Source: Spirochaetales bacterium | GTDB lineage: Bacteria > Spirochaetota > Spirochaetia > Sphaerochaetales > Sphaerochaetaceae | Length of the DNA: 64,000 bases | Direction: 5' to 3' | Assembly: GCA_018433865.1 (NCBI GenBank) | Contig: JAHDQJ010000048.1 | Location: 1 to 64,000, forward strand | Part shown: positions 691 to 29,014 of the stretch, one piece after another | Numbering within the stretch: the first letter of the stretch is position 1 | Layout of the letters: every line of letters starts with the position of its first letter | The notes under the pieces: generated by a model | The model's database searches: none | Told to the model about the DNA's origin: nothing | Seen by the model: only the letters and a program-made list of their open reading frames with translations | Program-made: the position numbers and the translations under genes

Positions 691-1407
691 ATGCTTGACA
701 AGAAACACTTGTACGAGAAGATCCGGGAGAACGGTCATGTAGTGAGTATGGCGGTATTCTTGGTAAAAGGAATCACCCTTGATGGTACTGCCCAGATTCT
801 CGCTGTAGAACAGATGCACAACGAATCTGAGGAAACGTATCGCATCCTGTTCCAGAATCTGAAGGATCGGGGAGTAAAACGAGTCTGGCTCTGTATCAGC
901 GATGCCCTCAAGCGTCTGCAGGCTGCCATCAATATAGAGTTCATGGGAACTTCGTGGCAACGATGCAAAGTCCTTTTCATGCGCAATATTCTTGCCTATC
1001 TGGGACATCGTCATAAGGACAGCTTCGCCAAGCAACTGAAACACATCTGGTTGCAGCCGGATGAAAAGCAGGCTCGCTCCTATGCCCAGTCATTCATGGA
1101 ATCCTATGAAAAACAATTTCCTGAAGCAATCCGCTGTCTGGAAGAGGGATTGGAGGATTCTTTGCAATTCTATCGCTTCGACCAGATCGACCATCGCAAG
1201 ATATCCTCCACCAACACCCTGGAACGGTTGAACCGAGAGATCTGCAGGCGTTCGAAGGTGGTAGGCATTTTCCCAAACAAGGCGTCATACACCCGATTGA
1301 TCACCACCTACCTCATGGATTATGAGGACGAATGGCAATCGACAAGAGCATATGTGAGTGTCCAGTCGTTGACTGAACAAAGGTTGAAATTGGAAGAGGT
1401 TGCATGA
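691..1407 (+). pseudogene. IS256/mutator-family transposase, N-terminally truncated
   Basis: The 238 residues match the catalytic core and C-terminus of IS256-type DDE transposases. The second catalytic Asp lies in a CISDALKRL block, followed by the conserved TSWQRCKVLFMRN stretch, and the third acidic residue lies in TLERLNREICRRSKVVGIFPN. Family members are about 400 residues; here the first third is absent. The sequence starts at YEKIRENGHVVS, where the first catalytic Asp should sit a few residues earlier, and that position appears to be Lys. No clear ribosome site precedes the ATG. I infer a dead insertion-sequence fragment. Confidence 0.8.
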
Positions 1408-1873: not shown

Positions 1874-3415
1874 CTACTCATTCGTAGCGACATGAAATAG
1901 CTTATCATAGACATCTTCAAAGTGTTCAATCTCTGCTTCAGTTAGCTGTAGGAATTCATTCTCACGTGCCCGTTTTGATAGCTTTCCCTCATTCTGTGAG
2001 AAAAAACTATACAAGAGAAAGACGGTAGAATCAGGCATTTCAACGGAATCCTGTACAGAGCCTCTGAACCGATCATAATTTACTAGGAATCGTGTCTCTT
2101 CCGGGAGATCATGTTCAATCGTTTGCTGTACACAATGATAGAGAAACACAGCATAGGAGGTAGCATCAAAGTATCGGTAGTAGTCCACTGTCGAATTCAG
2201 CACACGTACATTGTGATCTTCTGTAGGTTCCCACCTTATGAACGGGAGAATGCTATGTGAGTAATCTTTAAGGATGGATGCATATTCCTCTATTCGAAGT
2301 AACATTGCACTTGATATAGGAAATATCATTCCTGGGGGATTGTACCCATGCTCTGCAAGAATATGATGGATGAGATATCGATGAATTCTTCCATTTCCAT
2401 CAGAGAATGGATGGATAATCACAAAGCCGAAGGCAATCACAGCCGCGGCAACGACTGGGTCGATTTCTTGGGAAACTTTCTTTTCATATGCAAGAAGTCC
2501 TGAGATCAAAGAGTCTATATCTTCATATTTAGCACTTATATGTTCAACAATGGGTGTCCCAGTTTCTCTATCATGTTCACCAATGAAACCACCTTCTTCT
2601 CTGAACCCTATCTTCACAAAACCTCTAGAGCCTATCACTATCTGTTGGAGACGTATCAGTTCCTCTTTAGTCAAAGGTGATTTCCCTGCTTCTCTCAACG
2701 CATTGCCCCATCGCTGAATCCTATCATGCGAAGGTGTCTCATTTTCTATGGAAAAACTTGCTTTGGAATCTTTAAGTAGCAAGAATGCTGCAGCACGAGC
2801 TATGACATCCTTTGGGATATCTGAAATGACTTGGAGAGCTTTTAATTTAAAGTTCTTCATGAGGAATTCTTCAAGTTCTTCAGTTTTCCTGATCAGCGGA
2901 CAAAAATCAGGAGTCCCTGGAAGATTGTTCACAACACGATGTCTCTTGGAATTTTCTCCCTCTATGGAAATTTGGTGTTTGGGATTAACAACCAATACGT
3001 AATTACCTTTCTTGGCATCCGGGATATCAAGGAGTGTTCCCATGAGCCATTCATAGAGAAACCAAATTCGTCTACTGTATGAACCGGTACTAGTCTCCTG
3101 AATGATAGTTTCTATCGTTTGTTTATCGACTACCTCGAACAATTTTTTCAATACACATAAATCTATCCCTTCATATTTTAAAGCGAATTCAAGGTGGCCT
3201 TTGAGAGTTTCTTCGGGTTGATGTCTGGGTGTCAGCAAGTGCCACCCCAACCTTTTTACAATACTATGCTTCAAACCTATTGCCATTTTCAGTCGGGGAA
3301 AAGGTGCAGGAAGTAGGTATGCATCAATAAGAGCCACATACCCAACAGGAATTGCCTTCTCTGGCAGCAAGAATTCATGAAAAACGGTTACAGGTCCTGA
3401 AAATATATTATTCAT
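1874..3415 (-). CDS. Fic-domain AMPylase with its own inhibitory helix
   Basis: Fic proteins transfer AMP, or sometimes another nucleotide group, from a nucleotide to hydroxyl side chains of target proteins. The canonical active-site motif HPFSDGNGRIHR is complete at about residues 335-346, with catalytic His335. Upstream, about residues 220-225, is S-F-S-I-E-N, fitting the (S/T)xxxE(G/N) inhibitory helix that blocks ATP binding, so the enzyme is probably autoinhibited (class II, inhibitor N-terminal to the Fic core). An ATG 54 bases into the longest frame is preferred because AGGAGA sits 8 bases before it. The product is 513 residues, monocistronic and AT-rich compared with the chromosome, suggesting acquisition. 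Target unknown. Confidence 0.9.
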   Translation of the reverse strand: MNNIFSGPVTVFHEFLLPEKAIPVGYVALIDAYLLPAPFPRLKMAIGLKHSIVKRLGWHLLTPRHQPEETLKGHLEFALKYEGIDLCVLKKLFEVVDKQTIETIIQETSTGSYSRRIWFLYEWLMGTLLDIPDAKKGNYVLVVNPKHQISIEGENSKRHRVVNNLPGTPDFCPLIRKTEELEEFLMKNFKLKALQVISDIPKDVIARAAAFLLLKDSKASFSIENETPSHDRIQRWGNALREAGKSPLTKEELIRLQQIVIGSRGFVKIGFREEGGFIGEHDRETGTPIVEHISAKYEDIDSLISGLLAYEKKVSQEIDPVVAAAVIAFGFVIIHPFSDGNGRIHRYLIHHILAEHGYNPPGMIFPISSAMLLRIEEYASILKDYSHSILPFIRWEPTEDHNVRVLNSTVDYYRYFDATSYAVFLYHCVQQTIEHDLPEETRFLVNYDRFRGSVQDSVEMPDSTVFLLYSFFSQNEGKLSKRARENEFLQLTEAEIEHFEDVYDKLFHVATNE

Positions 3416-3613
3416 GCAGTGATCTCCTGAATTCTTATTATAATATAGTGTTATCCGTGATTTGTACATATATTTTATGAAAAGTGATTATACATGATTG
3501 TCGTAGGTGAAAAACCAGGTTTAAGGTACTAGGCACCAAAATTCTGCAGTTGTCGTTGCTCTTGCATAAATATGCAGATTCAACTTTCCGGGCTTCGTCT
3601 CTCCTGTCTAGCA

Positions 3614-4024
3614 TCAATACTTGAAGAATTGGCCCTTCCTCTGCAGCCAATCATAGGTGATGAGTTGCGCCCAAGCGTAGAGTGCGCCACCGAGTCCAAG
3701 GATCCACACGACGGCCTTTTTCCACCGTGCGAGGCCCGTCCAGAAGCGCAGTTTCCGTTGCTTCTGGTCTGCGAGAAAAGGGCAGGATTGGGGATGTCCG
3801 TCAGTCCCGATGCGCTCAAGGCCGCGCTTGACATCCGTCAGGTCGCCCTCGATGGTCGTCACCCGCCTAGCCGTGTCTTGGATGGCCCTCGACATGCCGT
3901 TGTGAATCGTATGGTTGATCTCTACGACTTGCGACTGCGTTTCCACGACCTTCTCGGTGAGAACCAGCACCTTGTCAAGCAGGGTGACGAGCATGTCCTT
4001 TTGGGTTTGTGGCTTGTCGTTCAT
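3614..4024 (-). CDS. Holin/XhlA-like small membrane protein
   Basis: This 136-residue protein has a polar, coiled-coil-like N-terminal two thirds and one hydrophobic segment near residues 106-124 (AVVWILGLGGALYAWAQLI). A helical N-terminus with a single late membrane span is typical of phage XhlA/haemolysin-like proteins that work with holins. It is the last gene of the leftward prophage operon, the usual place for lysis functions, but no endolysin follows. Function is inferred from architecture and position only. Confidence 0.5.
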   Translation of the reverse strand: MNDKPQTQKDMLVTLLDKVLVLTEKVVETQSQVVEINHTIHNGMSRAIQDTARRVTTIEGDLTDVKRGLERIGTDGHPQSCPFLADQKQRKLRFWTGLARWKKAVVWILGLGGALYAWAQLITYDWLQRKGQFFKY

Positions 4025-4034
4025 GGGGCGCTCC

Positions 4035-4712
4035 TTATGGTGACTTCGATGCGGTTGTACCCGCCGGAGAGTCTGTCATGCGGTATGGATGATATGACCG
4101 GATGGATGCATTGATCCTGCGGTGCTTGGCAATCGCCCCTGCGAACAGGTCCCACGTCTCGTCCAACAACTTCTGCTCCGCTTCCCTGCCTTCCTTGGTG
4201 GCTGGCGACAGGTTCTTCTTGTCCGAGAACTTGGAGTGGAAATAGACCTTCTGGATGCCGAGCTTCGTCCAGAACCCCTCAAGGTTCGTCCATGCCGCCT
4301 GCACGCCGACCGAGCCGGTTTCGCTTGCGGGCGACATGTAAATCTTCTTGGTGGCAGCCGGAAGCAGGTACGCCGCGGAACACCCCATTGACACCGTGAA
4401 GGAATATGCCATGAGCGAGGCTGGTGGCTCAAAGTCAGAAGGTGAAGCCGAGTGTGAACACACTACATACGCCTCGTTGCAATACGGCAGATAATCCTGC
4501 ATCTTGTGGTCGCTCATAAAATCCTGTCTGCTGGACTTGATTTCATAAGCCAAAACCATTGGATTGGCCCATGATTTTTTCATGGCCCAGGCGTCCATAC
4601 GACGCGCACCGTGTTCGATGGTAACTTCCTCATAAAACACATCGTCGACATGTCGCTTTGCAAGTAACTTCCTTATATTTGTTACTACCGTGTTTCGGTC
4701 TAAGCTCATCAT
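4035..4712 (-). pseudogene. Chimera of an MmcB-like nuclease start and an S49 peptidase fragment
   Basis: Residues 1 to about 88 resemble MmcB-family DNA-repair nuclease proteins: basic N-terminus, RRMDAWAMKKSW, then YEIKSSRQDFMSDHKMQDYLPYCNEAYVV with the E-x-K signature. From about residue 95 the sequence switches to the middle of a phage S49 (SppA/protease C-like) peptidase: GCSAAYLL holding the Ser nucleophile, SPASETGSVGV, then KLGIQKVYFHSKFSDKKNLSP and LFAGAIAKHR. After that the similarity stops and an unrelated 25-residue tail follows. Neither half is complete. I infer in-frame deletion junctions that removed the prophage packaging and capsid genes. The start overlaps the upstream stop and follows GAGAGGGGG. 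Confidence 0.65.
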
Positions 4713-5014
4713 TTCCCCCTCTCAAACACCAACTTCTTGCCAGCTTCCAACATGCGGTCGAGAATCATCCCGTTGCACGCGATATGCAGGGCGTGGCTCA
4801 TACCATCGTCTGGGTCGATCAACTCACCCCTTCGGATTGCTTGGATATGACGCATGGTGGCGTTCCAATACAACAACGGGTCGAGTTCCATGTACCCTAT
4901 CGGATGGGTTGCTGCACCGTCGTTCATGATCTTCGCCATGCCAGCAAGCTGCTCAGGCGGCAAGAGATGGTATTCCAACTTCGCTTTCTTCCGCGCATCT
5001 TCCTTGAACTCCAT
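4709..5014 (-). CDS. dATP/dGTP diphosphohydrolase N-domain-like protein
   Basis: The 101 residues fit the small phage family annotated as dATP/dGTP diphosphohydrolase N-terminal domain (PF18909-like). The visible signature is KLEYHLLPPEQLAGMAKIMNDGAATHP, then YWNATMRHIQAIRRGELIDPDDGMSHALHIACNGMIL, with the H-x-x-A-x-x-x-G-E and D-x-x-S-G/M-x-H pattern of all-alpha NTP pyrophosphohydrolases. Such enzymes trim the dNTP pool, and relatives (MazZ) serve phages with 2-aminoadenine genomes. No PurZ or specialised polymerase is seen here, so the role is probably ordinary pool adjustment. It sits in the early operon between two overlapping genes. Confidence 0.6.
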   Translation of the reverse strand: MEFKEDARKKAKLEYHLLPPEQLAGMAKIMNDGAATHPIGYMELDPLLYWNATMRHIQAIRRGELIDPDDGMSHALHIACNGMILDRMLEAGKKLVFERGK

Positions 5015-5182
5015 TCACGCCCCCTTCTTCTCGACCAAGGTGACGAGCGAGCGCCTCACCACCTGCTTTGCCCCATGGCGACGGATTCCGTAATACACGC
5101 CGAGCGAGTTCCGCGTCATGCTGAAAATCTCCCACTTGTGTCCGTTGTACAGACACCTCATGCCGATAATGTCCTGTTCCAT
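5015..5182 (-). CDS. Small basic phage protein, 55 residues
   Basis: A short frame begins at an ATG preceded by GGAGG seven bases upstream and stops directly against the start of the next gene. The product begins MEQDIIGMRCLYNGHKW and ends with many Lys and Arg residues. The good ribosome site and tight packing support a real gene. No family is recognised. Confidence 0.6.
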   Translation of the reverse strand: MEQDIIGMRCLYNGHKWEIFSMTRNSLGVYYGIRRHGAKQVVRRSLVTLVEKKGA

Positions 5183-5194
5183 GTCATGCCTCCG

Positions 5195-5680
5195 TCAAAA
5201 GGGAATGTCATCATCGAACTGCTCCGGCCCAGGGAACCCGCCACCTGTAGCGTAAGAATCGCCACCAGTCGATTTTCCGACGCTAGGTGAAGTAGTTCTA
5301 CCATTTTCCGAATATCTTTGATTCTGGCGCGTCCTAGACCACTCTCCGTCGAAGTCTGCTTTCTTTCCGTCACCAAGAAGTTGGATGAAGTCGACGACAA
5401 TCACCAATTTGCTCCGATTCGACCCGTCGTTCGCCTGCCACTTCTCTTGGCTCAGTCGACCGCTGACGATCACGCCCTTGCCCTTGGTCATGTAGGGGGC
5501 GACCGCATCGGCGAGCTTGCCGAACATCTTGCACTCGATGAACGCCGTTTCCTCGGTTTCCCCATACTTGCGGTTGACCGCCACGACGAACCCTGCGACC
5601 GACAGACCACTGTTCGTGACCTTCGGCGTCACATCGTTCACCAGATTCCCCGATATGCTCACGCTGTTCAGATTGTTCAC
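5195..5680 (-). CDS. ssb: Single-stranded DNA-binding protein
   Basis: A GTG start follows AAGGAGGTGGCAA and overlaps the upstream stop as GTGA; the longer frame upstream is not used. The 161-residue product has an OB fold (LNSVSISGNLVNDVTPKV, AVNRKYGETEETAFIECKMFGKLA, GKGVIVSGRLSQEKWQ), a Gly/Ser/Asn-rich linker and the acidic tip DDDIPF. That tip recruits recombination and replication proteins. As a phage-encoded SSB in the operon with RecT and a DnaC-like loader, it should coat single strands during prophage replication and annealing. Confidence 0.93.
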   Translation of the reverse strand: MNNLNSVSISGNLVNDVTPKVTNSGLSVAGFVVAVNRKYGETEETAFIECKMFGKLADAVAPYMTKGKGVIVSGRLSQEKWQANDGSNRSKLVIVVDFIQLLGDGKKADFDGEWSRTRQNQRYSENGRTTSPSVGKSTGGDSYATGGGFPGPEQFDDDIPF

Positions 5681-5871
5681 TTGCCACCTCCTTGCACATC
5701 CTGTATCACCGTCTCGCCGCAATGGGGGCAGGCGATGAACGCGATGCCGTCGGGCGTGACATATCTTGCGTCCGATGCGAGGAACGTGAACTCGCACCCA
5801 CATTCCTCGCACCCGACCCTGTAACCAGTGACGCGCTTCTCCGGCACGCCATCCCTCAAGACCTTAACCAT
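5677..5871 (-). CDS. Small zinc-ribbon protein
   Basis: The 64 residues contain two knuckles, C-E-E-C about residues 21-24 and C-P-H-C about 48-51, separated by a hydrophobic strand. This is the usual two-CxxC zinc-ribbon arrangement. It overlaps genes on both sides (its stop overlaps the ssb start), indicating translational coupling. Its role in DNA metabolism is suggested only by position. Confidence 0.65.
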   Translation of the reverse strand: MVKVLRDGVPEKRVTGYRVGCEECGCEFTFLASDARYVTPDGIAFIACPHCGETVIQDVQGGGK

Positions 5872-6211
5872 GCTTTTGCTCCTTCTTGCTCCATCCGTGC
5901 TTCTTGGTCGCCCAAGTAGCCTTCCATTCCTCCAACAGCAAGTCCACCGCGAGGCACTCCAACTGTCTCCTGATGTCCGCAGGGTGGTAGAACCGCGTCA
6001 GCACCGGAGGGTTGCCCCGATGGTGGCGGCTGGTGTAACGGATGTATCCCTGCTTGCATAGCCACACGACAAACGCCGCACTGTGCGACACCCCATGCCT
6101 GTCGAGCTTCCGTCGGGTGAGCATCGACAATGGACACTCGCCGTTCTTGATGGCGATATCCGCACGCTTGCTCTGCTTGCGACCCACATACCCTCGGTTC
6201 AAGTTTTTCAC
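5864..6211 (-). CDS. Phage protein of unknown function, possible winged helix
   Basis: I place the start at a GTG overlapping the previous stop (GTGA) with GGAGG ten bases upstream; a TTG two codons earlier is possible. The 115-residue product is strongly basic and contains LTRRKLDRHGVSHSAAFVVWLCKQGYIRYTSRHHRG, which has the helix-turn-helix then hairpin look of a winged-helix DNA binder. This is an inference from pattern, not a family match. Confidence 0.5.
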   Translation of the reverse strand: MKNLNRGYVGRKQSKRADIAIKNGECPLSMLTRRKLDRHGVSHSAAFVVWLCKQGYIRYTSRHHRGNPPVLTRFYHPADIRRQLECLAVDLLLEEWKATWATKKHGWSKKEQKHG

Positions 6212-6627
6212 AGGCAAGTATCCTCCGGCTTGTCATGGATGATGAACTTCGCATCCCCGAGTCCCATCTGGTGGTAGACCAGCAAGTCCTCGACCGCGTC
6301 CCAATCGACCACGCCGTCCTTGATCGGCACACCGAGCGCCAAGTCGTCGATGTAGACCTGCGCATACACCTTTGGGCTGGTAGTCCATGAAATCTGGTCT
6401 GGGTTGCGGTTAACACCCCAAAACTCGATGCCACGCTCACGGCAGTAATCAACAGCTTCCTGCAAGTAGTTCCGCTTCAAGCAATCGCTCCGCATGGTGT
6501 ACAGGATGAGCTTGTGCCCATCTGCCTGCAAACGGCGAAGTACGCGGAAGGCATTGGGTGCCTCGGGCCCGATGTTGGGGAACTCCTGTCGAACCAGCGT
6601 CCCGTCGAAATCGACTGCGATTATCAT
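6208..6627 (-). CDS. HAD-superfamily phosphatase-like protein
   Basis: The ATG at 6627 overlaps the upstream stop as ATGA and follows GGGGGAGAA. The first motif of haloacid-dehalogenase phosphatases, AVDFDGTLV, is at residues 4-12 with the nucleophile Asp. A second motif (LILYTMRS, Thr) follows, and YIDDLALGVP supplies the acidic motif near residue 105. At 139 residues it is a compact form like phage and Bacteroides BT_1666-type proteins. Likely a nucleotide or sugar phosphatase; the substrate cannot be read from the sequence. Confidence 0.75.
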   Translation of the reverse strand: MIIAVDFDGTLVRQEFPNIGPEAPNAFRVLRRLQADGHKLILYTMRSDCLKRNYLQEAVDYCRERGIEFWGVNRNPDQISWTTSPKVYAQVYIDDLALGVPIKDGVVDWDAVEDLLVYHQMGLGDAKFIIHDKPEDTCL

Positions 6628-7367
6628 TTCTCCCCCCTTGCGCGGAAACTTTTCCAATCCATCAGGACTGCGGTTCCCGGATATTCAATCAACCGCTCGT
6701 AGCAAGAGCGCCCCACGATGTCGATGACCGTATCTTCGTCTGCATTGGTCATGATGACCGTCGGCTTGAGGTCGTCGTACCGCGCGTTGATGATGCGATA
6801 CAGGCCGATGAACTCGGCTTTCGTGCCGAACGTCTTGTCCAGCTCGTCGATGACCAGGTGATCGTACCGGGCGTATCGGTCGATGAGCGACATGCTGGTG
6901 TCGTAGCTCTCCTTGTCGTAGGTATTCTTGATCTCGTCGAACAGCGCAGGCGCCAAGATGTACTTGCACCGCTTTCCTGCAAGGATCCTCTCGCGGAGGA
7001 ACGAGTATGCCAGTCGCGTCTTGCCCGTGCCGTTCTTGCCGTACATGACCAGCGAGTTGCCTGAGCGCAGACATGAGATCACATGCCTCTGCCTTGCGGC
7101 CACACGTTCGTCGCTGTAGAGCATGTAGTTCTCGAACGTCGCGTCTGCATACCGCTTGGGAAACCGTGCCAGCTCACCATTGATGCGCTCTTGTTCCGCA
7201 CGCCTCGCTTCATCTGCCTCGCGGACACGCCGAGCCTCTGCCTCGGCAACCTCTTGCCTTTCGCGATCATCGGCAAGACGCTTCATCTCGGCCAATTCAT
7301 CCGGCGATGCGTTCAACAGCTTGCCGAGTGTTGCCATCGACTGCCTCGCCCTGTCGTCATTTCTCAT
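6624..7367 (-). CDS. DnaC/IstB-like AAA+ helicase loader
   Basis: The protein opens with a long charged Glu/Arg/Ala coiled coil (about residues 20-75), then an AAA+ ATPase core. Walker A is MYGKNGTGKTRLA near residue 110, Walker B is HLVIDELDKT, and a sensor-1-like PTVIMTNAD follows. The order coiled coil plus ATPase, directly after an O-like initiator, fits the loaders that place replicative helicase on the prophage origin. I prefer the internal ATG at 7367 because the longer version would start at GTG without better spacing. Confidence 0.82.
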   Translation of the reverse strand: MRNDDRARQSMATLGKLLNASPDELAEMKRLADDRERQEVAEAEARRVREADEARRAEQERINGELARFPKRYADATFENYMLYSDERVAARQRHVISCLRSGNSLVMYGKNGTGKTRLAYSFLRERILAGKRCKYILAPALFDEIKNTYDKESYDTSMSLIDRYARYDHLVIDELDKTFGTKAEFIGLYRIINARYDDLKPTVIMTNADEDTVIDIVGRSCYERLIEYPGTAVLMDWKSFRARGEK

Positions 7368-8244
7368 CGCCAACACCCCCCATGTAATCCTTCACATCCA
7401 TGCCGCCTGGCTCCGTGCCATAACGGTTCAGCGGCCGCTGTCTGGTCTTGATGCCACCCAATCCGTCAAGCTCATCTTCCCACCGCTTCTGGTTCAGCCA
7501 TGTGGACGGGTGGGGTATGTACTGGCCGTTGTCACGCTTCCACTGGTTGCTTTTCTTCTGAGACTCCACCGCATCCAAGACGGTATTGAACAACGCGTCG
7601 TCCATCTTGATTTTCGACCAAGACTTTTCTGCCGCACCCTTGCCGACCTTGCGAGGGTATGCTGACCAGAACTGCGCGAAATCATGTTCAGGCGCGGCGG
7701 GCTTTTCGTCGTTGAGAGATGTATGAATCATTGAATCAGAATCAGAATCAGAATCAATATCAGAATCAGAATCAGAATCAGAATCAAGATCTAAATAGTT
7801 CGTATCATATGTATATCCTATCGGTAGGCTATTGATACCGTCAGATAGGCTATCTATTGGATACTGGTATGGGATTGACTCCTTTCTCATTACATCAAAA
7901 AGAGATGGAGGCACTTGATTGATGAGGATTGCCCTGATTCCCTTGTGGATTTTTTCAAGTTTGTGCCACTTTTGATGCTTCGGCCAGTTTACCATGATGA
8001 TGTGTTCTTCGCGGTAGTAGACCTTCTTCGTGCGCTCGAACGTGGCAAGCATCTTTTTCACTTGATCGGGAGAGAAGCAGGACTCTGATGCCATCTTTCG
8101 TATCGAAACCTTGTAAATCCCCGCGATGTTTGTATGTTCGTTGGTGAGAAGGTAGAAGTAGAACAGTCGCTCGTTTGTGTTCAAATCATCGATAAACCAG
8201 TTGTCATCCCAAATACTTGTCGAAATATACCGCTGTGTTGCCAT
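7357..8244 (-). CDS. Phage replication initiator (O/DnaD-like) with Ser-Asp linker
   Basis: The N-terminal 110 residues look like the winged-helix domain of phage replisome organisers (NERLFYFYLLTNEHTNIAGIYKVSIRKMA, VYYREEHIIMVNWPKHQKWH). About residues 150-172 form an almost pure Ser-Asp repeat encoded by hexanucleotides of the TCAGAA type. The C-terminal part (FAQFWSAYPRKVGKGAAEKSWSKI, YIPHPSTWLNQKRWEDE) is the conserved tail found in many phage replication proteins. Its stop overlaps the loader start. It should bind the prophage origin, which may lie within its own gene. Confidence 0.8.
   Translation of the reverse strand: MATQRYISTSIWDDNWFIDDLNTNERLFYFYLLTNEHTNIAGIYKVSIRKMASESCFSPDQVKKMLATFERTKKVYYREEHIIMVNWPKHQKWHKLEKIHKGIRAILINQVPPSLFDVMRKESIPYQYPIDSLSDGINSLPIGYTYDTNYLDLDSDSDSDSDIDSDSDSDSMIHTSLNDEKPAAPEHDFAQFWSAYPRKVGKGAAEKSWSKIKMDDALFNTVLDAVESQKKSNQWKRDNGQYIPHPSTWLNQKRWEDELDGLGGIKTRQRPLNRYGTEPGGMDVKDYMGGVGDEK
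7729..7799. repeat. Hexanucleotide microsatellite encoding a Ser-Asp run
   Basis: About ten near-perfect copies of a TCAGAA-type hexamer lie in frame inside the replication initiator and encode alternating Ser and Asp. The run is interrupted once by ATC (Ile) codons. Being a multiple of three, slippage here changes the linker length without breaking the frame. Confidence 0.85.
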
Positions 8245-8245
8245 T

Positions 8246-8377
8246 TCAATTACCTTTCTCCACTATTTTCGCGAACCCATACGACGCACCCAACGCCACC
8301 AATCTCCACCAGAATCCGAACAGGAAACCGATGTCCACAACCAAGAGAAACAGAAGCGAAAGTAAGATTGTTTTCAC
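8246..8377 (-). CDS. Tiny membrane protein, 43 residues
   Basis: A GTG start directly abuts the preceding stop, with GGAGG seven bases before it. Residues 3-35 are mostly hydrophobic (ILLSLLFLLVVDIGFLFGFWW), giving one or two membrane spans, and the end is basic. The gene fills the space between its neighbours exactly, which supports it. Function unknown. Confidence 0.55.
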   Translation of the reverse strand: MKTILLSLLFLLVVDIGFLFGFWWRLVALGASYGFAKIVEKGN

Positions 8378-8554
8378 TTATTCCTCCGGGTACGCATCGG
8401 CAAACTCATCGATGACTTGTATTTCGCTCAGTGCGACATTCCGCTTGAACTGCCGACCGTACAGACTTGTCAGATTGGCATGTCCATTATTGACATAGAC
8501 TATCGTCCACACTGTTCCACAGAAGTGACAACGCCGGTATAGCATAGTGGTCAT
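8378..8554 (-). CDS. Small protein with one CxxC knuckle
   Basis: I place the start at an ATG overlapping the upstream stop as ATGA. The 58-residue product has CHFCG near residue 9 and an acidic end (DEFADAYPEE). A single CxxC suggests half a zinc site or a dimeric metal site. It is packed tightly into the early operon. No family recognised. Confidence 0.5.
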   Translation of the reverse strand: MTTMLYRRCHFCGTVWTIVYVNNGHANLTSLYGRQFKRNVALSEIQVIDEFADAYPEE

Positions 8555-8817
8555 TCCATCCACCCGATGACCGTCTGGCCTTTCACCATATCCTCGTAGA
8601 TGAGGCTTCCTGGCACGAAAGTTGCGTTGGCGACAGACATGCGTGCAACGTGACAGGAGATGCCAAGAATCTTGGCAAGATCGCGCAGTTCGATGCGTCC
8701 GTAGTGCTTGACAAGCTGTATGAGATTCTTCGTCCTCTCCGTGACGCTTTCCTCTGGTTTGCGGAACATCTCGTCGGGAACGTATGCTCTGCCGAATCTG
8801 ACACTTCCTCCGATCAT
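8551..8817 (-). CDS. Small helix-turn-helix protein
   Basis: The ATG follows AAGGAGG with good spacing. The central part, TERTKNLIQLVKHYGRIELRDLAKILGISCHVARMSV, reads as a winged or tri-helical helix-turn-helix in which RDLAKILGIS is the first helix and turn. The 88-residue length suits a phage regulator or an origin-associated binder. Target unknown. Confidence 0.6.
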   Translation of the reverse strand: MIGGSVRFGRAYVPDEMFRKPEESVTERTKNLIQLVKHYGRIELRDLAKILGISCHVARMSVANATFVPGSLIYEDMVKGQTVIGWME

Positions 8818-8906
8818 TTGGTTGCCTCCTTGAAGATTTGCCCTGCTTCGTGGGACGCCGGGCCAGCGCTCGTACTTTCAGCCACTACTGTTTGGTACGT
8901 TTTCAC
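8814..8906 (-). CDS. Possible leader peptide, 30 residues
   Basis: A GTG-started frame ends in a stop that overlaps the ATG of the next gene (ATGA), the coupling seen throughout this operon. The ribosome site is weak (GGTCGGGTG) and composition is unremarkable, so the call rests on the overlap only. Confidence 0.25.
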   Translation of the reverse strand: MKTYQTVVAESTSAGPASHEAGQIFKEATK

Positions 8907-8939
8907 CCGACCATACGGCTTGAGTGTTTAATCTCATTG

Positions 8940-9494
8940 TCAAGCAAGCGGTCTATGCCTTTTTGGTAAACTGGAAAGTGGTGTATTGTTATTTTTTATC
9001 TTGTGTAAGATGTGCCAAAGGCTTCCCTTACTAGAAATACCAAACTTTTCTTGTGTCTTTTTATAAGACTTACACAAGCTATAAAAATTAAATATTTCCA
9101 TCTCTTCATCGTCTGTCCACCTTCTCAGTTTTGACGAAGCGTTTAGAGATGTTTTCAGTCTTTCTTGCTCAGGTTTATCCATCATGTTGTCTGATTGGCT
9201 ACCAAGCTCAATATTGTACTCATGATTATTTGTGCTGTTTCCATCAAGGTGTCTTACCTGATTTCCTTTACCGAATAATTTGTTGCCAAATTTTTTATAG
9301 GCAACCAATCTTGATACCGATATTGGATAAACTGTTCCATTCAAAAAAACACTAACAACAACTCTTATGTATCCACTTCTATTAACCTTAAAGATCAATG
9401 AACGCTTCTTGCCGTTATAGAAAACCACGCCATCAATGACCTTGATTTTTCCAGAATCTATAGAATTTTTTATTATTTCATTGGATTTGTTCAC
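8940..9494 (-). CDS. HNH homing-endonuclease-like protein
   Basis: I choose the GTG at 9494, five bases after GGAGG. The middle holds the HNH-type block QVRHLDGNSTNNHEYNIELGSQSDNMMD, preceded by an NUMOD-like strand region (YIRVVVSVFLNGTVYPISVSRLVAYKKFG). The C-terminus has a helix-turn-helix-like part (WTDDEEMEIFNFYSLCKSYKKTQEKFGIS). The gene is clearly more AT-rich than its neighbours, typical of free-standing phage homing endonucleases inserted between genes. It probably nicks or cuts the same intergenic site in related phages that lack it. Confidence 0.82.
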   Translation of the reverse strand: MNKSNEIIKNSIDSGKIKVIDGVVFYNGKKRSLIFKVNRSGYIRVVVSVFLNGTVYPISVSRLVAYKKFGNKLFGKGNQVRHLDGNSTNNHEYNIELGSQSDNMMDKPEQERLKTSLNASSKLRRWTDDEEMEIFNFYSLCKSYKKTQEKFGISSKGSLWHILHKIKNNNTPLSSLPKRHRPLA

Positions 9495-9599
9495 ATTAAC
9501 CTCCACTGGAAAATATTTTGTCCAGCAAGCCTTGACTTGAAAAGTTGTCCGAGCGTCGGTCGGACTAGCCCTATGACTCTGCGGGAAGGGGAAACCCGC

Positions 9600-9983
9600 C
9601 TAGTTCCACCCCAACTTGGCACGCATCTTGCGCTCTGCCTTGAACTGCGCCGTTCGTGCCTTCTGTATGTCCGCGAACGACTTGCCCTTGCGAACCTGCT
9701 TGGGGACGTGCGTGTAGTACAGGTCGTTGCTGTTGAACAACCAACCCTTGAAGTACCGCGCGAACGATTGGCGCTTGGTGGCGAACTTGTCCTGCTTCGG
9801 CTTCTTGAACGTGCCATCCTCGTTCTTGCCAGCACGCCGCATCGCCCTTGTCGGCCCCAATGCCTTCTTGTGTGCGCCGTTGGGCGACTTGAGTGACCGA
9901 TAGACCTTCATCGCATCCCTGCGACGCTCTGCGCGCGGTCTGCCGTCGCGCTCCATGAACAGACTGATGCCTGCTTTTTTCAT
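9600..9983 (-). CDS. Basic phage protein of unknown function
   Basis: The ATG overlaps the upstream stop and follows AAGGAGG. The 127-residue product is very rich in Lys and Arg (MKVYRSLKSPNGAHKKALGP, RKGKSFADIQKARTAQFKAERKMRAKLG), consistent with nucleic-acid binding. No catalytic motif or family is recognised. It lies between the HNH insertion and the RecT module. Confidence 0.6.
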   Translation of the reverse strand: MKKAGISLFMERDGRPRAERRRDAMKVYRSLKSPNGAHKKALGPTRAMRRAGKNEDGTFKKPKQDKFATKRQSFARYFKGWLFNSNDLYYTHVPKQVRKGKSFADIQKARTAQFKAERKMRAKLGWN

Positions 9984-10204
9984 TCTGCAACCTCCTTGGT
10001 TGGCGGTACAAAGCTCACGTCGTTCTCCAAGACGACCTTGCCGTTATGGTCCTTGAAGTCTCCCATGTCGCCAAGGCACAGCTCAGTGCCGAGTCCGAGC
10101 GTGGAATTGCCGCCGACATGCACGACAACGCCGCTACACGGCTGCGAGAACAGGACGACCGCATCGTACTTCTCCGACCTCATCAGCTTCGGATATGTGG
10201 TCAT
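9980..10204 (-). CDS. Unknown phage protein, 74 residues
   Basis: Start and stop overlap the neighbouring genes by four bases on each side, and GGAGGG precedes the ATG. The sequence has hydrophobic strands (AVVLFSQPCSGVVVHVGG) and Gly-rich turns but no motif I recognise. Coupled translation suggests it is expressed with RecT and the SSB-containing operon. Confidence 0.55.
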   Translation of the reverse strand: MTTYPKLMRSEKYDAVVLFSQPCSGVVVHVGGNSTLGLGTELCLGDMGDFKDHNGKVVLENDVSFVPPTKEVAE

Positions 10205-10500: not shown

Positions 10501-11484
10501 CTAGAATGGCTGTCCGTCGCCTTGGGCGAACATGTCGGCGATATCGTCGCCTTTTTCCGGCTCAGACTTCTGATCTTGAGGCTCCTTTGCTTCGGGCTTT
10601 GTGGGGGGATCTGGCTGTTTTTGCGTCGGCGCGTTTCCAAGCGCCTTCTGCTTGCCGTCGGGAACCTCGTACTCTCCCTCGATGTCAGAACCGTTGTACT
10701 CGTTCTCGGTTGTGCGTATGAACGCCTGTTGCTGTTCTGTGAGCGATTTGTCGTCGGTGGTCTTGAATGGGCGCTTGCACATACGGCTCAAGAGTGTTTT
10801 CTTTGCCATCTCAACAGGGAATTGTCCGTGCGTCGAACTCGGAAGCACGTTGCCATCCTTGTCAAATACCTGCATGTTCGACTTCTTCCAAGATGCGTGG
10901 ATCTCTTTCACGGTCATGATGTCGGTGGCTATCAGCTTGCCGTCGGTGCCGATGATGTATCCATATGCCCCGGTGATCGGTCGATCTGTCGCCCCGAACT
11001 TTTGCACATGGCGCTTCACGATGCGCTCTCCCGCCATATCAGGCCTCGACAGGTCGTTGACCACCTCTATCTCAATCTCATCGCCCTCGTGGATGGTAAG
11101 GCATGGAACCTTGTAAACTTCCGGCATGACCGTCCTGAGCGCACGCTCGGTTCCGAAGTACGAGCGCATGAGCGTCAACTTGTCGCCGCGCACGATGAAG
11201 TAACACTGGCTCTTTGTTGGGTTCAGCCCCTGCTTCACCATGTCAAGCAACGACTCAGCTATGCTTTCGTTCGTACAGACCGAGAGTGCCGGGCGCTTGT
11301 CCTTGTCAACCGTCTGCTTGATTATCAGGTATGCTCCCTTGAGCGCGTTCTCGGGTGAATAGTTCGGCGGCAACACCAACGCCTTTCCCGTTTCCAGATC
11401 GCGCACGCGCTTCATGACCGCATCGGAAATATCGCGCTCCTTGAGCAACGCAATCTCCTTCCCTCCCAACGATTCCTGTGCCAT
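10501..11484 (-). CDS. recT: RecT-family single-strand annealing recombinase
   Basis: RecT proteins anneal complementary strands during phage recombination. Family features are visible: an N-terminal helix, ALKGAYLIIKQTV, the core SVCTNESIAESLLDMVKQGLNPTKSQCYFIVRGDKLTLMRSYFG, and IVKRHVQKFG with TDIMTVKEIHASWKKS. The C-terminal 60 residues are a Pro/Lys/Glu-rich tail ending in an acidic segment. The gene is preceded by AAGGAGG. A DUF1351 gene sits directly upstream, as in many Firmicutes phages, but no RecE-type exonuclease is visible; DUF1351 or another neighbour may supply that partner. Confidence 0.93.
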   Translation of the reverse strand: MAQESLGGKEIALLKERDISDAVMKRVRDLETGKALVLPPNYSPENALKGAYLIIKQTVDKDKRPALSVCTNESIAESLLDMVKQGLNPTKSQCYFIVRGDKLTLMRSYFGTERALRTVMPEVYKVPCLTIHEGDEIEIEVVNDLSRPDMAGERIVKRHVQKFGATDRPITGAYGYIIGTDGKLIATDIMTVKEIHASWKKSNMQVFDKDGNVLPSSTHGQFPVEMAKKTLLSRMCKRPFKTTDDKSLTEQQQAFIRTTENEYNGSDIEGEYEVPDGKQKALGNAPTQKQPDPPTKPEAKEPQDQKSEPEKGDDIADMFAQGDGQPF

Positions 11485-13284: not shown

Positions 13285-14172
13285 TCATGCGTCACCTCCA
13301 AGCAAAAGCTGGTCGCTGTCGTCATCGCCGTTACCATTCAGCCACCAGTCCATGACTTCCTCGCCAGTAGCCCATTGCGTCTCCATGCCGTCCGCAACTC
13401 GCTTGTCAATCATCCGTTGGAACGCACGAACATAGGACTGTCTGAATTTCGGGTACCGCTCGAACTGTGTTTCTTGACCATTTTTTCCAGCCATTGGGCA
13501 TCCAATGCACCCAAGACGCTTGAATCCTTCGTTGTAGAGTTTGCAGTAGGGCATGTTTTCACGATGAATAAACTCCCATACATCATCGTCCGACCAATCG
13601 ATGATCGGATTCACGACATACTGCTTCCTTGGTAGGCAATGCTCCATCTGTCGCCGGTCATCATCGTTGTCGTTGAATAGGATTTTCCGGTTCTTCACCG
13701 TGTCCGCGATATCCTCGAACGCTCCGCGCTTGGCTCTTGCGACGCTTTCAGCCCAACGGACGCCAGTCAACGTAAAACGTCCTTGACCGCCACCTTCCTT
13801 CAATTCTTTACAGCAATACCGGACCAGTCTTGTCGGCGGCATCCTTTTCTGGACAATGAGTTGCCACATCGACTTCTGGTACAGATCACGGCTTACGAAC
13901 GGGAACTCCGACTTGACGAAATGCACCAACTCAGGCGGGTCGATTCCGGTGACGTTGTAATGGAACTCGGCATATTCCAATAGCGGAATATTCTCCTGCT
14001 CTGACGCCATCTTGACCACTCCATAGAGAGCAACCGAATCCTTGCCGCCGGAGAACGCAACATATAGCTTGCCAAGTCGGAGCGATTGTGAGAATTTGTA
14101 GGCATCTTTCACCCGCTCGACAGCGTTCTGCACCTTGTCGATTGTTCCGAACAGCGTCTTTTCGTATAGCAC
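13285..14172 (-). CDS. Phage PAPS-reductase/DndC-like PP-loop protein
   Basis: The PP-loop AFSGGKDSVALYGVVK near residue 39 marks the ATP-pyrophosphatase fold shared by PAPS reductases and DndC. C-terminal cysteines (VRYCCKELK, then RLGCIGCPMAG) fit a [4Fe-4S] or metal site as in APS reductases and DndC. Many phages carry such enzymes; roles proposed include sulfur transfer to DNA or tRNA and cysteine metabolism. No dnd partners are present, so phosphorothioation is not supported. The start is GTG with a weak AAGGACGAC site. Confidence 0.82.
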   Translation of the reverse strand: MLYEKTLFGTIDKVQNAVERVKDAYKFSQSLRLGKLYVAFSGGKDSVALYGVVKMASEQENIPLLEYAEFHYNVTGIDPPELVHFVKSEFPFVSRDLYQKSMWQLIVQKRMPPTRLVRYCCKELKEGGGQGRFTLTGVRWAESVARAKRGAFEDIADTVKNRKILFNDNDDDRRQMEHCLPRKQYVVNPIIDWSDDDVWEFIHRENMPYCKLYNEGFKRLGCIGCPMAGKNGQETQFERYPKFRQSYVRAFQRMIDKRVADGMETQWATGEEVMDWWLNGNGDDDSDQLLLGGDA

Positions 14173-22510: not shown

Positions 22511-22599
22511 AACTCCTTGTGCATCATGGCACATGAATCAAAGCCGTTTGCCTGCTGTCGGTGGACGTCATCACCTAGACAGGACTTACTGTCGGCTAT

Positions 22600-22690
22600 A
22601 GGACCGGCAAGACTCGAACTTGCACGGCTCGGATGCGTATACCATCCAGCTCCCCAGTCTGCAACCGCCGTCACGATTGCACCCGGTCCT
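22600..22690 (-). tRNA. tRNA-like gene, 91 bases, anticodon unclear
   Basis: A perfect 7-bp acceptor stem (AGGACCG with CGGTCCT) encloses a clean T arm (GCAAG, loop TTCGAGT, CTTGC). Inside are a TGCAA/TTGCA stem and a GGATG/CATCC stem with loop GTATACG. The length suits a class II tRNA, but no single fold gives a normal anticodon arm. If GTATACG is the anticodon loop, the anticodon would be ATA. It may be a phage tRNA with an insertion, a decayed tRNA or a tRNA mimic. Confidence 0.5.
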
Positions 22691-22841
22691 ACACCCGTCT
22701 TTCCGGGCTGTCAGACACTTCCCTCTCGATCGCGTTGGTCGTTCGCAATCACGGACAGTATTCTACCGCCACTATCCGGTTTCTCCGTACTTCCGGCAAG
22801 TTTCCAGCACCATTGATTGCGCTGGCACTCATTATGGGTTT

Positions 22842-22911
22842 AGCAGGGGCAGGACTCGAACCTGCAACCTCGACGTTATGAGCGTCGCTGTCTGCCTTTG
22901 ACGTACCCTGC
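22842..22911 (-). tRNA. Phage tRNA with CAT anticodon (Met or Ile2)
   Basis: Reading left: acceptor GCAGGG with CCCTGC (6 bp; the outer pair is a C-T mismatch), D arm GTC/GAC with a GG-containing loop, anticodon arm CGACG-CTCATAA-CGTCG giving anticodon CAT, and T arm GCAGG-TTCGAGT-CCTGC. The fold is good apart from the outer acceptor pair. No CCA is encoded. CAT could be elongator Met or, if the C is lysidinylated, Ile. Confidence 0.75.
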
Positions 22912-23109
22912 GATGACCGCCGATTTGCATAGGCTGGCTCGGCGGGGCCTCTTTGCCTTCACGGACGATAGTCCATGCGAGGGTGCAGGGCTTTCCCCTG
23001 CGTGTTACATGATGCACCTCCCAAAAGATGAATCAGAAACCTTGTAGCTCATTATATCATGGGGTTTCGGCGATCCGGCAAGTAGTGTCGGCGAATATCA
23101 TGAGAAATG
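22912..23109. other. Non-coding spacer with stem-loops
   Basis: Between the tRNA and the small-gene operon there are two hairpins readable on the minus strand: GCAGGG/CCCTGC with a short GAAA-type loop (about 22986-23002), and CCGCCGA/TCGGCGG (about 22918-22946). A 61-codon frame across this stretch overlaps the tRNA and has its ribosome site too close to a GTG, so I do not call it. Confidence 0.4.
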
Positions 23110-27412: not shown

Positions 27413-28792
27413 CTACTCCTTTTCCTGTAAACGTTTACATTCCGTAGACCCAACCGAGTCCTCCACAATCTCCGCTTCTCCCACGATGAGGTGCGATATA
27501 TCCGCTATCGACTTCACCATATCAAGCCGGTTCTCCGCACGGGTATAGATATCAGTCATCTCCTTGCTTTCGTGGCCGACCGTCAGACGCAGTTTGTCGC
27601 CGGTAGCCCCCAATGCCTGCGCCTCGGTATTGAAGAAGTGCCGGAAGCTGTGGAAGCTGATGTTACGCCCGCGCCTCATCATCTCACCTGCACGCACCAT
27701 CAACGGCTTGCCCTCCTTGTCGAACTTGCCACGGGCGGTCGCATCGGTGTCCTCGACCATCGTGCCGACCTTGACGCCTGCCTGCGCTTCCAATACGTCG
27801 TAGAGATGGCCGTAGAAGTTCTCGCGGATGTACGAGGACGCGACAGGCCCGTTGTCCTTCGCACCGCCGACCGTCCAGAACACCAAGGAGGATCCCGTCG
27901 TGTTCTTCGCCGCCATGTCCAGCAATTTGTTCGCCAGCCAAGTGGGGCAGGGTGTGGAGCGCGTTTTCTTCCCTTTGGTCGATTTCTCGCCGCCCTTGAT
28001 CGACCACGACTTTGAAACATGGATGATGGCGTCCTGCTCATTGACCACATTGATGTCGTTCGCATAGAGCGCGCGGATCTCTCCGAGGCGCATCCCCGTG
28101 GCTGCGGCCAAGAGGACGGCGAGATACACATGCTCGGTCGCGTTCTCCTTGAGGACGACCAGCACCTTCTGGAACTCGCTTCGGGTGAGGATGCCCCTCT
28201 GTCGCTCCGGCGTGGTGTCGACATGTTCCACCAGCTTGGTCGGGTTCTCATGGATCATGTCGTTCTTCCACGCGTCCCTCAATGGCTTGGTGAAGGCGAC
28301 CATGATCTTGTCGACCGTCGAGTTCGCCATGGCTCCCGAATCGATGAGTTTGTTGGATATGTCGCGGACGAACTTGGGCGACACGTCGGCGACCTCCATG
28401 CCCTTGCCGACGAGCGGGACGATGTGCGTCTTGATGTATCCGCGCATGATGCCTGCGTAGTTCTCGCTGACAGCCCCCGGACGGCGCTTGTTCAGCCTCC
28501 TGATGCGGATGCCCGTGAAGTCCCAAAAATCGAGCAGGTAGTCGGTCAGCAACTCGCGGCTTCCCCGGTTGATCTTGATGAACCCGCGCTCGTAGGCCAA
28601 GACGACGATGCGTTCGCACTGTCGCTTGCTCTTGAGCTTCGGGTGTTCCTCCTGCAACCCCATGCGCTTGACCAGGCTCTTGACCGACAGCATGGGGCTG
28701 CGCTTTCCGTCGCCGACGAGGTATTGGAAATACCAGCCGAAACCGTCGCGCTCGAACACGGTGTACTTGAAATCTGCCTTGGTTCTTGGCAT
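27413..28792 (-). CDS. int: Tyrosine integrase of the prophage
   Basis: This 459-residue site-specific recombinase has an N-terminal DNA-binding region, a SAM-like core-binding domain (about 85-185) and a catalytic domain with Arg235 (ATGMRLGEIRAL), His381 and Arg384 (HSFRHF), His407 (GHES) and nucleophile Tyr416 (DIYTRAE), a full R-H-R-H-Y set. GGAGG precedes the ATG. The gene ends within two bases of a chain of small genes, so it is the first gene of an operon. Its start lies 150 bases from the tRNA-Val gene, identifying the attachment region. Confidence 0.96.
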   Translation of the reverse strand: MPRTKADFKYTVFERDGFGWYFQYLVGDGKRSPMLSVKSLVKRMGLQEEHPKLKSKRQCERIVVLAYERGFIKINRGSRELLTDYLLDFWDFTGIRIRRLNKRRPGAVSENYAGIMRGYIKTHIVPLVGKGMEVADVSPKFVRDISNKLIDSGAMANSTVDKIMVAFTKPLRDAWKNDMIHENPTKLVEHVDTTPERQRGILTRSEFQKVLVVLKENATEHVYLAVLLAAATGMRLGEIRALYANDINVVNEQDAIIHVSKSWSIKGGEKSTKGKKTRSTPCPTWLANKLLDMAAKNTTGSSLVFWTVGGAKDNGPVASSYIRENFYGHLYDVLEAQAGVKVGTMVEDTDATARGKFDKEGKPLMVRAGEMMRRGRNISFHSFRHFFNTEAQALGATGDKLRLTVGHESKEMTDIYTRAENRLDMVKSIADISHLIVGEAEIVEDSVGSTECKRLQEKE

Positions 28793-28942: not shown

Positions 28943-29014
28943 TGGGCGCGATTGGGTTTGAACCAACGACTTCTACCGTGTGAAGGTAGCACTCTCCCGC
29001 TGAGTTACGCGCCC
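28943..29014 (-). tRNA. tRNA-Val, anticodon CAC
   Basis: All arms fold well: acceptor GGGCGCG/CGCGCCC, anticodon arm CTACC-TTCACAC-GGTAG (anticodon CAC, reading GTG codons), T arm GTTGG-TTCAAAC-CCAAT, discriminator A. No CCA is encoded. The prophage integrase lies next to the 3' end, so this tRNA is the likely integration target (attB), with the crossover in the T arm/acceptor part. Confidence 0.95.

Follow-up and report, generated by a model that had tools for sequence, protein, structure and literature searches.

How did the start of an MmcB-like nuclease gene and an internal piece of a phage S49 protease gene come to share one reading frame in a prophage of a Spirochaetales bacterium? The frame in question (4035-4712, minus strand, 225 codons from an ATG to a TAA stop) lies in the first 64,000 nucleotides of contig JAHDQJ010000048.1, the whole of which we refer to as the window. 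The initial annotation had read it as an in-frame chimera that marks where the prophage lost its structural genes, and our analysis leads to a similar account, in which the fused gene is very probably the scar that deletions left in a defective prophage.

We scanned the fused ORF against Pfam both whole and in separate pieces (residues 1-102, residues 103-200 and the last 25 residues). The whole ORF matched two unrelated families, MmcB-like and Peptidase_S49; residues 1-102 alone matched MmcB-like (E 3.6e-6, above the curated cut-off, profile positions 28-97 of 148), as had been claimed for the N-terminal part, and residues 103-200 alone matched Peptidase_S49 (E 8.4e-17, profile positions 15-109 of 154). 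PHROGs assigned residues 12-87 to phrog_5429 ("DNA repair protein") and residues 108-201 to phrog_53 ("head maturation protease", profile positions 156-251 of 583). The matches of both halves are well above chance, and the Pfam and PHROGs scans together describe two unrelated and incomplete family pieces in one frame, with no single known family spanning it. GC content steps from 0.47 in the MmcB part to 0.60 in the S49 part across the first junction. The start of the chimera overlaps the stop of the upstream dGTPase-like gene as ATGA, and a purine-rich stretch resembling a ribosome-binding site precedes its ATG; thus, translation of the chimera is plausible.

MmcB has been described as a PD-(D/E)XK endonuclease (PMC9578287). 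The MmcB-like half is 67% identical in amino acid sequence to the viral contig L018 over residues 7-85 and, judging from alignment and predicted fold, retains the PD-(D/E)XK core with its active-site residues. Specifically, D40 and E57-x-K59 fall in the conserved motifs DAWAMKKSW and YEIK of the MmcB-like alignment, and in an AF2 model of the chimera residues 1-93 fold with pLDDT of ~71-85, with nothing confident beyond them. The predicted core has 3dnx as its best PDB match (E 2.9e-4) and also matches models of phage MmcB-like proteins (E 2.6e-5). Viral MmcB-like relatives are 250-300 aa long, and with only ~101 residues kept the fused ORF has lost the greater part of that protein. Thus, the fused ORF shares with the MmcB-like nucleases (PF06319, phrog_5429) the N-terminal core, the motif residues and a 3dnx-like predicted fold, but lacks the ~150-200 residues of the C-terminal region.

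The other half is a 275-bp slice that corresponds to residues 116-207 of a 398-aa intact S49 protease of the lambda gpC type (phrog_53, PF01343). These 92 residues, which carry the motif serine (Ser112), are 80% identical in amino acid sequence and 79% in nucleotide sequence to the proteases of L015, L016 and L017, three IMG/VR contigs, and they align with the SppA structure 3rst. The slice is without the first ~115 and the last ~190 residues of the protease, and is thus not a full-length crotonase-like domain with both catalytic regions; similarity to the intact protease breaks off sharply on both sides, at 4388 and at ~4113. An internal S49 piece with its serine had been proposed before, and both the family and the serine hold, but its limits are residues 109-200 rather than 95-190. 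The S49 half was disordered in the AF2 model of the chimera, and the intact protease, included as a control with three sequences, likewise failed to fold. The dN/dS of the slice relative to intact relatives is 0.08-0.10, which suggests that nearly all of its divergence arose while the gene was still functional, in keeping with a fusion that is comparatively recent, although this low ratio alone does not decide the matter, since selection acting on the fused protein would lead to the same value.

We placed the first junction by aligning nine MmcB-like relatives. The family pattern continues weakly to about residue 101, so the junction lies between 4409 and 4389; the parents against which microhomology at the breakpoints would be judged are only 67-80% identical. 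On the other side of the slice, 4035-4113 has no similarity beyond chance to S49 or to the relatives, and the 25-codon tail matches no family and has a weak coding signal, in agreement with the claim of an unrelated tail. An alternative frame at 4024-4112 ends in ...DRLSGGYNRIEVTIRSAP and a stop that overlaps the ATG of the ORF at 3614-4024. An origin of the last codons in a tail gene, which such an ending had suggested, was considered and rejected: with the 28 residues of the alternative frame, tblastn gave only matches of E ~9, the single hit of a degenerate DNA scan of viral contigs fell within a 790-aa ORF that is unrelated, and the tail protein of the relatives has a different end. The features of the locus are collected in the table below.

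Table. Features of the fused gene and of the prophage around it (window coordinates)
Feature	Coordinates	Strand	Basis
Orphan ORF, 136 aa, possible membrane protein	3614..4024	-	good coding signal in frame
Junction 2 and 25-codon tail, ends TAA	4035..4113	-	without family match; weak coding signal
S49 head-maturation protease, internal slice, residues 109-200	4114..4388	-	identity to L015/L016/L017; Pfam S49; SppA 3rst alignment
Junction 1, ~7 codons assignable to neither parent	4389..4408	-	MmcB likeness fades after ~residue 101; S49 similarity from 4388
MmcB-like PD-(D/E)XK nuclease gene, N-terminal part, residues 1 to ~101	4409..4712	-	Pfam; L018 identity; AF2 fold
dATP/dGTP diphosphohydrolase N-terminal-like gene	4709..5014	-	Pfam E 6.4e-18; 90% aa identity to L016
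Single-strand DNA-binding protein gene	5195..5812	-	Pfam/PHROGs
HAD-like hydrolase and DnaC-like helicase loader genes	6208..7376	-	family matches; colinear with L016
Replication initiation gene	7357..8244	-	phrog_9474 E 8.5e-33
RecT-like annealing protein gene	10501..11484	-	Pfam/PHROGs
Integrase gene, retained prophage end	27413..28792	-	phrog_1 E 1.3e-36
tRNA-Val (CAC), likely integration site	28943..29014	-	adjoins integrase

The fused gene was expected to stand among replication and lysis-like genes. Phage early genes (SSB, a DnaC-like loader, an initiator and RecT) are indeed present, but the supposedly lysis-like ORF at 3614-4024 has no Pfam or PHROGs family match, and searches of phages, viral contigs and 139 genomes of the family found no relatives of it. 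The replication initiator gene contains a tandem GAATCA-type hexamer repeat (7721-7804) that encodes an Asp-Ser linker, and a PAPS-reductase-like gene (phrog_424; 13285-14172, minus strand) lies among the early genes. A tRNA-Tyr with the unusual anticodon ata (22599-22668) and a tRNA-Met (22840-22913) are also predicted in the prophage; these predictions may be spurious or may represent phage tRNAs. The integrase stands beside a tRNA-Val; in sibling genomes this tRNA has a different neighborhood, free of integrase in the stretch that was read. A search for an att repeat found none. At the other end, the contig stops ~4 kb past the scar and the far end of the prophage is not seen; position 1 of the window is also position 1 of the contig, so this end may be located on a different contig. 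We tried synteny with sibling genomes to find the far-side deletion endpoint, and the left flank was not conserved. Near the contig start lie the C-terminal part of a transposase (phrog_2331; 691-1407, plus strand) and a gene for a Fic/DOC-family protein (1874-3469, minus strand; GC 0.40, compared to 0.58 in the host flank), which adjoins the prophage end.

When viral contigs were scanned with the fused protein, each contig matched one half: L015, L016 and L017 matched residues 103-200 only (80% identity), and L018 (67%) and L019 (43%) matched the N-terminal part only. The early region of the window is colinear with contigs of the L015/L016/L017 type from ~22.1 kb down to 4.7 kb. In L015 and L016 the order runs on from the replication loader, SSB and dGTPase-like genes through convergent large and small terminase genes to the portal, S49, capsid E and tail genes, with family assignments from Pfam and PHROGs (GpA terminase, lambda-type portal, S49/phrog_53, capsid E). 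L017 likewise has this early region and, after it, terminase, portal, full-length protease and capsid E. Thus, in L016 the gene after the dGTPase-like gene is a convergent terminase, whereas in the window it is the chimera, and the S49 gene, which lies between portal and capsid in L015 and L016, has no such location in the window, although its strand relative to the dGTPase-like gene is the same in all three. The intact protease is 398 aa in L016 and 397 aa in L015; with the 250-300 aa of the MmcB-like relatives, these lengths bear out the statement that neither half is complete. The terminase genes (4393-6670 in L016; 4435-6705 in L015) run toward the early genes, against the direction of portal, protease and capsid. 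From the dGTPase-like gene to the slice, L016 spans ~5.3 kb (positions 4725-10009). The longest relative continues with a tape measure and a large tail protein that ends in a peptidase S74 domain, neither with a counterpart in the window, and its coordinates put ~14.7 kb between the slice and a small gene past the large tail protein. An MmcB-like gene adjoining the dGTPase-like gene was not seen in the relatives found, so the order at the first junction before deletion is not directly seen.

The loss of the structural module extends to the whole host assembly (estimated to be 99.9% complete with 0.6% contamination, in 55 contigs). The 14.6 kb of L016 DNA from head to tape measure gave a single match in that assembly, the 275 bp at window 4114-4388 (79%); neither a lambda-type portal protein nor the GpA terminase family was found in it, and control genomes were positive for the latter. 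The slice is the only structural PHROG among the ORFs scanned. The claim that packaging and morphogenesis genes are gone is thus upheld, and the proposal that deletions removed them gains support from the intact relatives, which hold the full module at the corresponding place, where the window holds only a 275-bp island. Nor did we find any relative carrying the fused gene: none of 196 relatives, 395 genomes of the class, viral contigs, phages and plasmids searched matched both halves, the fused gene is absent from two sibling species, and it occurs together with the orphan ORF in this genome only, among those searched. Neither of the two results that the initial annotation had named as refuting its account, related phages with the fused gene beside a full structural module or one continuous family along the frame, was obtained.

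We suggest that the prophage descends from a temperate phage whose integrase, replication genes and dGTPase-like and MmcB-like genes were followed by a lambda-type packaging and head module and a tail module. Deletions would have brought codons 1 to ~100 of the MmcB-like gene into one frame with codons ~116-207 of the S49 gene, and the terminase, the portal and the beginning of the protease would have been lost in between (~5 kb, judging from relatives). The end of the slice would have been joined to unrelated DNA just before the ORF at 3614-4024, at the cost of the remaining protease sequence, the capsid and the tail genes, a loss that relatives put at ~14 kb or more. With its sequence resembling a ribosome-binding site and its coupling to the upstream gene, the hybrid gene may be translated; going by its sequence, the hybrid protein, without most of both parents, most likely does nothing. 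We infer, rather than observe, that the events were deletions and not a mosaic insertion, how many there were, and that the product lacks function; between deletion and acquisition, parsimony decides.

The main rival for the origin of the slice is mosaic exchange, in which the 275 bp were gained from another phage by recombination, perhaps via the RecT of the prophage, and mark that exchange rather than the original site of the head module. Swaps of small fragments between temperate and defective phages are common and are helped by Rad52-like recombinases (PMC3945230), this prophage encodes RecT, and the GC content of the pieces differs. We nonetheless consider this origin unlikely, because the position and orientation of the slice with respect to the dGTPase-like gene are the right ones, it has diverged from L016 (79% nucleotide identity) about as much as neighboring genes have (74-82%), and no flanking homology is present at its ends. 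Moreover, with the remainder of the module lost in any case, a deletion is needed under both readings.

A more doubtful alternative still is that the assembler joined pieces of different phage genomes. Although the assembly is in 55 contigs and the contig starts ~4 kb away, the slice occurs only once in the assembly, so that no repeat explains a misjoin, the contamination estimate is low, the ATGA overlap with the upstream gene is exact, and elsewhere the element is colinear with relatives. We think it more improbable again that the fused gene is expressed and that its product, an MmcB-type nuclease core followed by a tail derived from the protease, has been co-opted for a working role, for instance as a DNA-processing or anti-phage factor. 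Least probable of all is a satellite or phage-inducible island, which would be without structural genes in its normal state and whose fused protein works, for example, against helper capsid maturation: the integrase and replication genes without a structural module, the open frame and the coupled start would suit it, but the same compact element with a conserved gene set was not found in several strains, the fused gene occurs in one genome, the relatives of the element carry full structural modules, and both halves are cut short inside their families, with a 275-bp protease relic being what deletion leaves.

Deletion in a defective prophage, our preferred reading, agrees with the documented pattern of incomplete prophages, in which packaging, head and lysis genes are lost and the integrase is kept (PMC7744054). 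Like such prophages, this one keeps its integrase and early genes, has lost terminase, portal, capsid and tail, and has an IS remnant nearby; unlike the usual defective prophage, its deletion endpoint left a readable in-frame fusion of two phage genes. The scar is thus a further example of ordinary prophage decay in which the fusion is unusually legible, and it leaves the current view of that decay unchanged. It provides a clear case in which head and tail genes were deleted from a prophage and a readable hybrid frame was left behind, and it carries a warning for annotation, in that a match to "head maturation protease" does not here indicate a functional head module.
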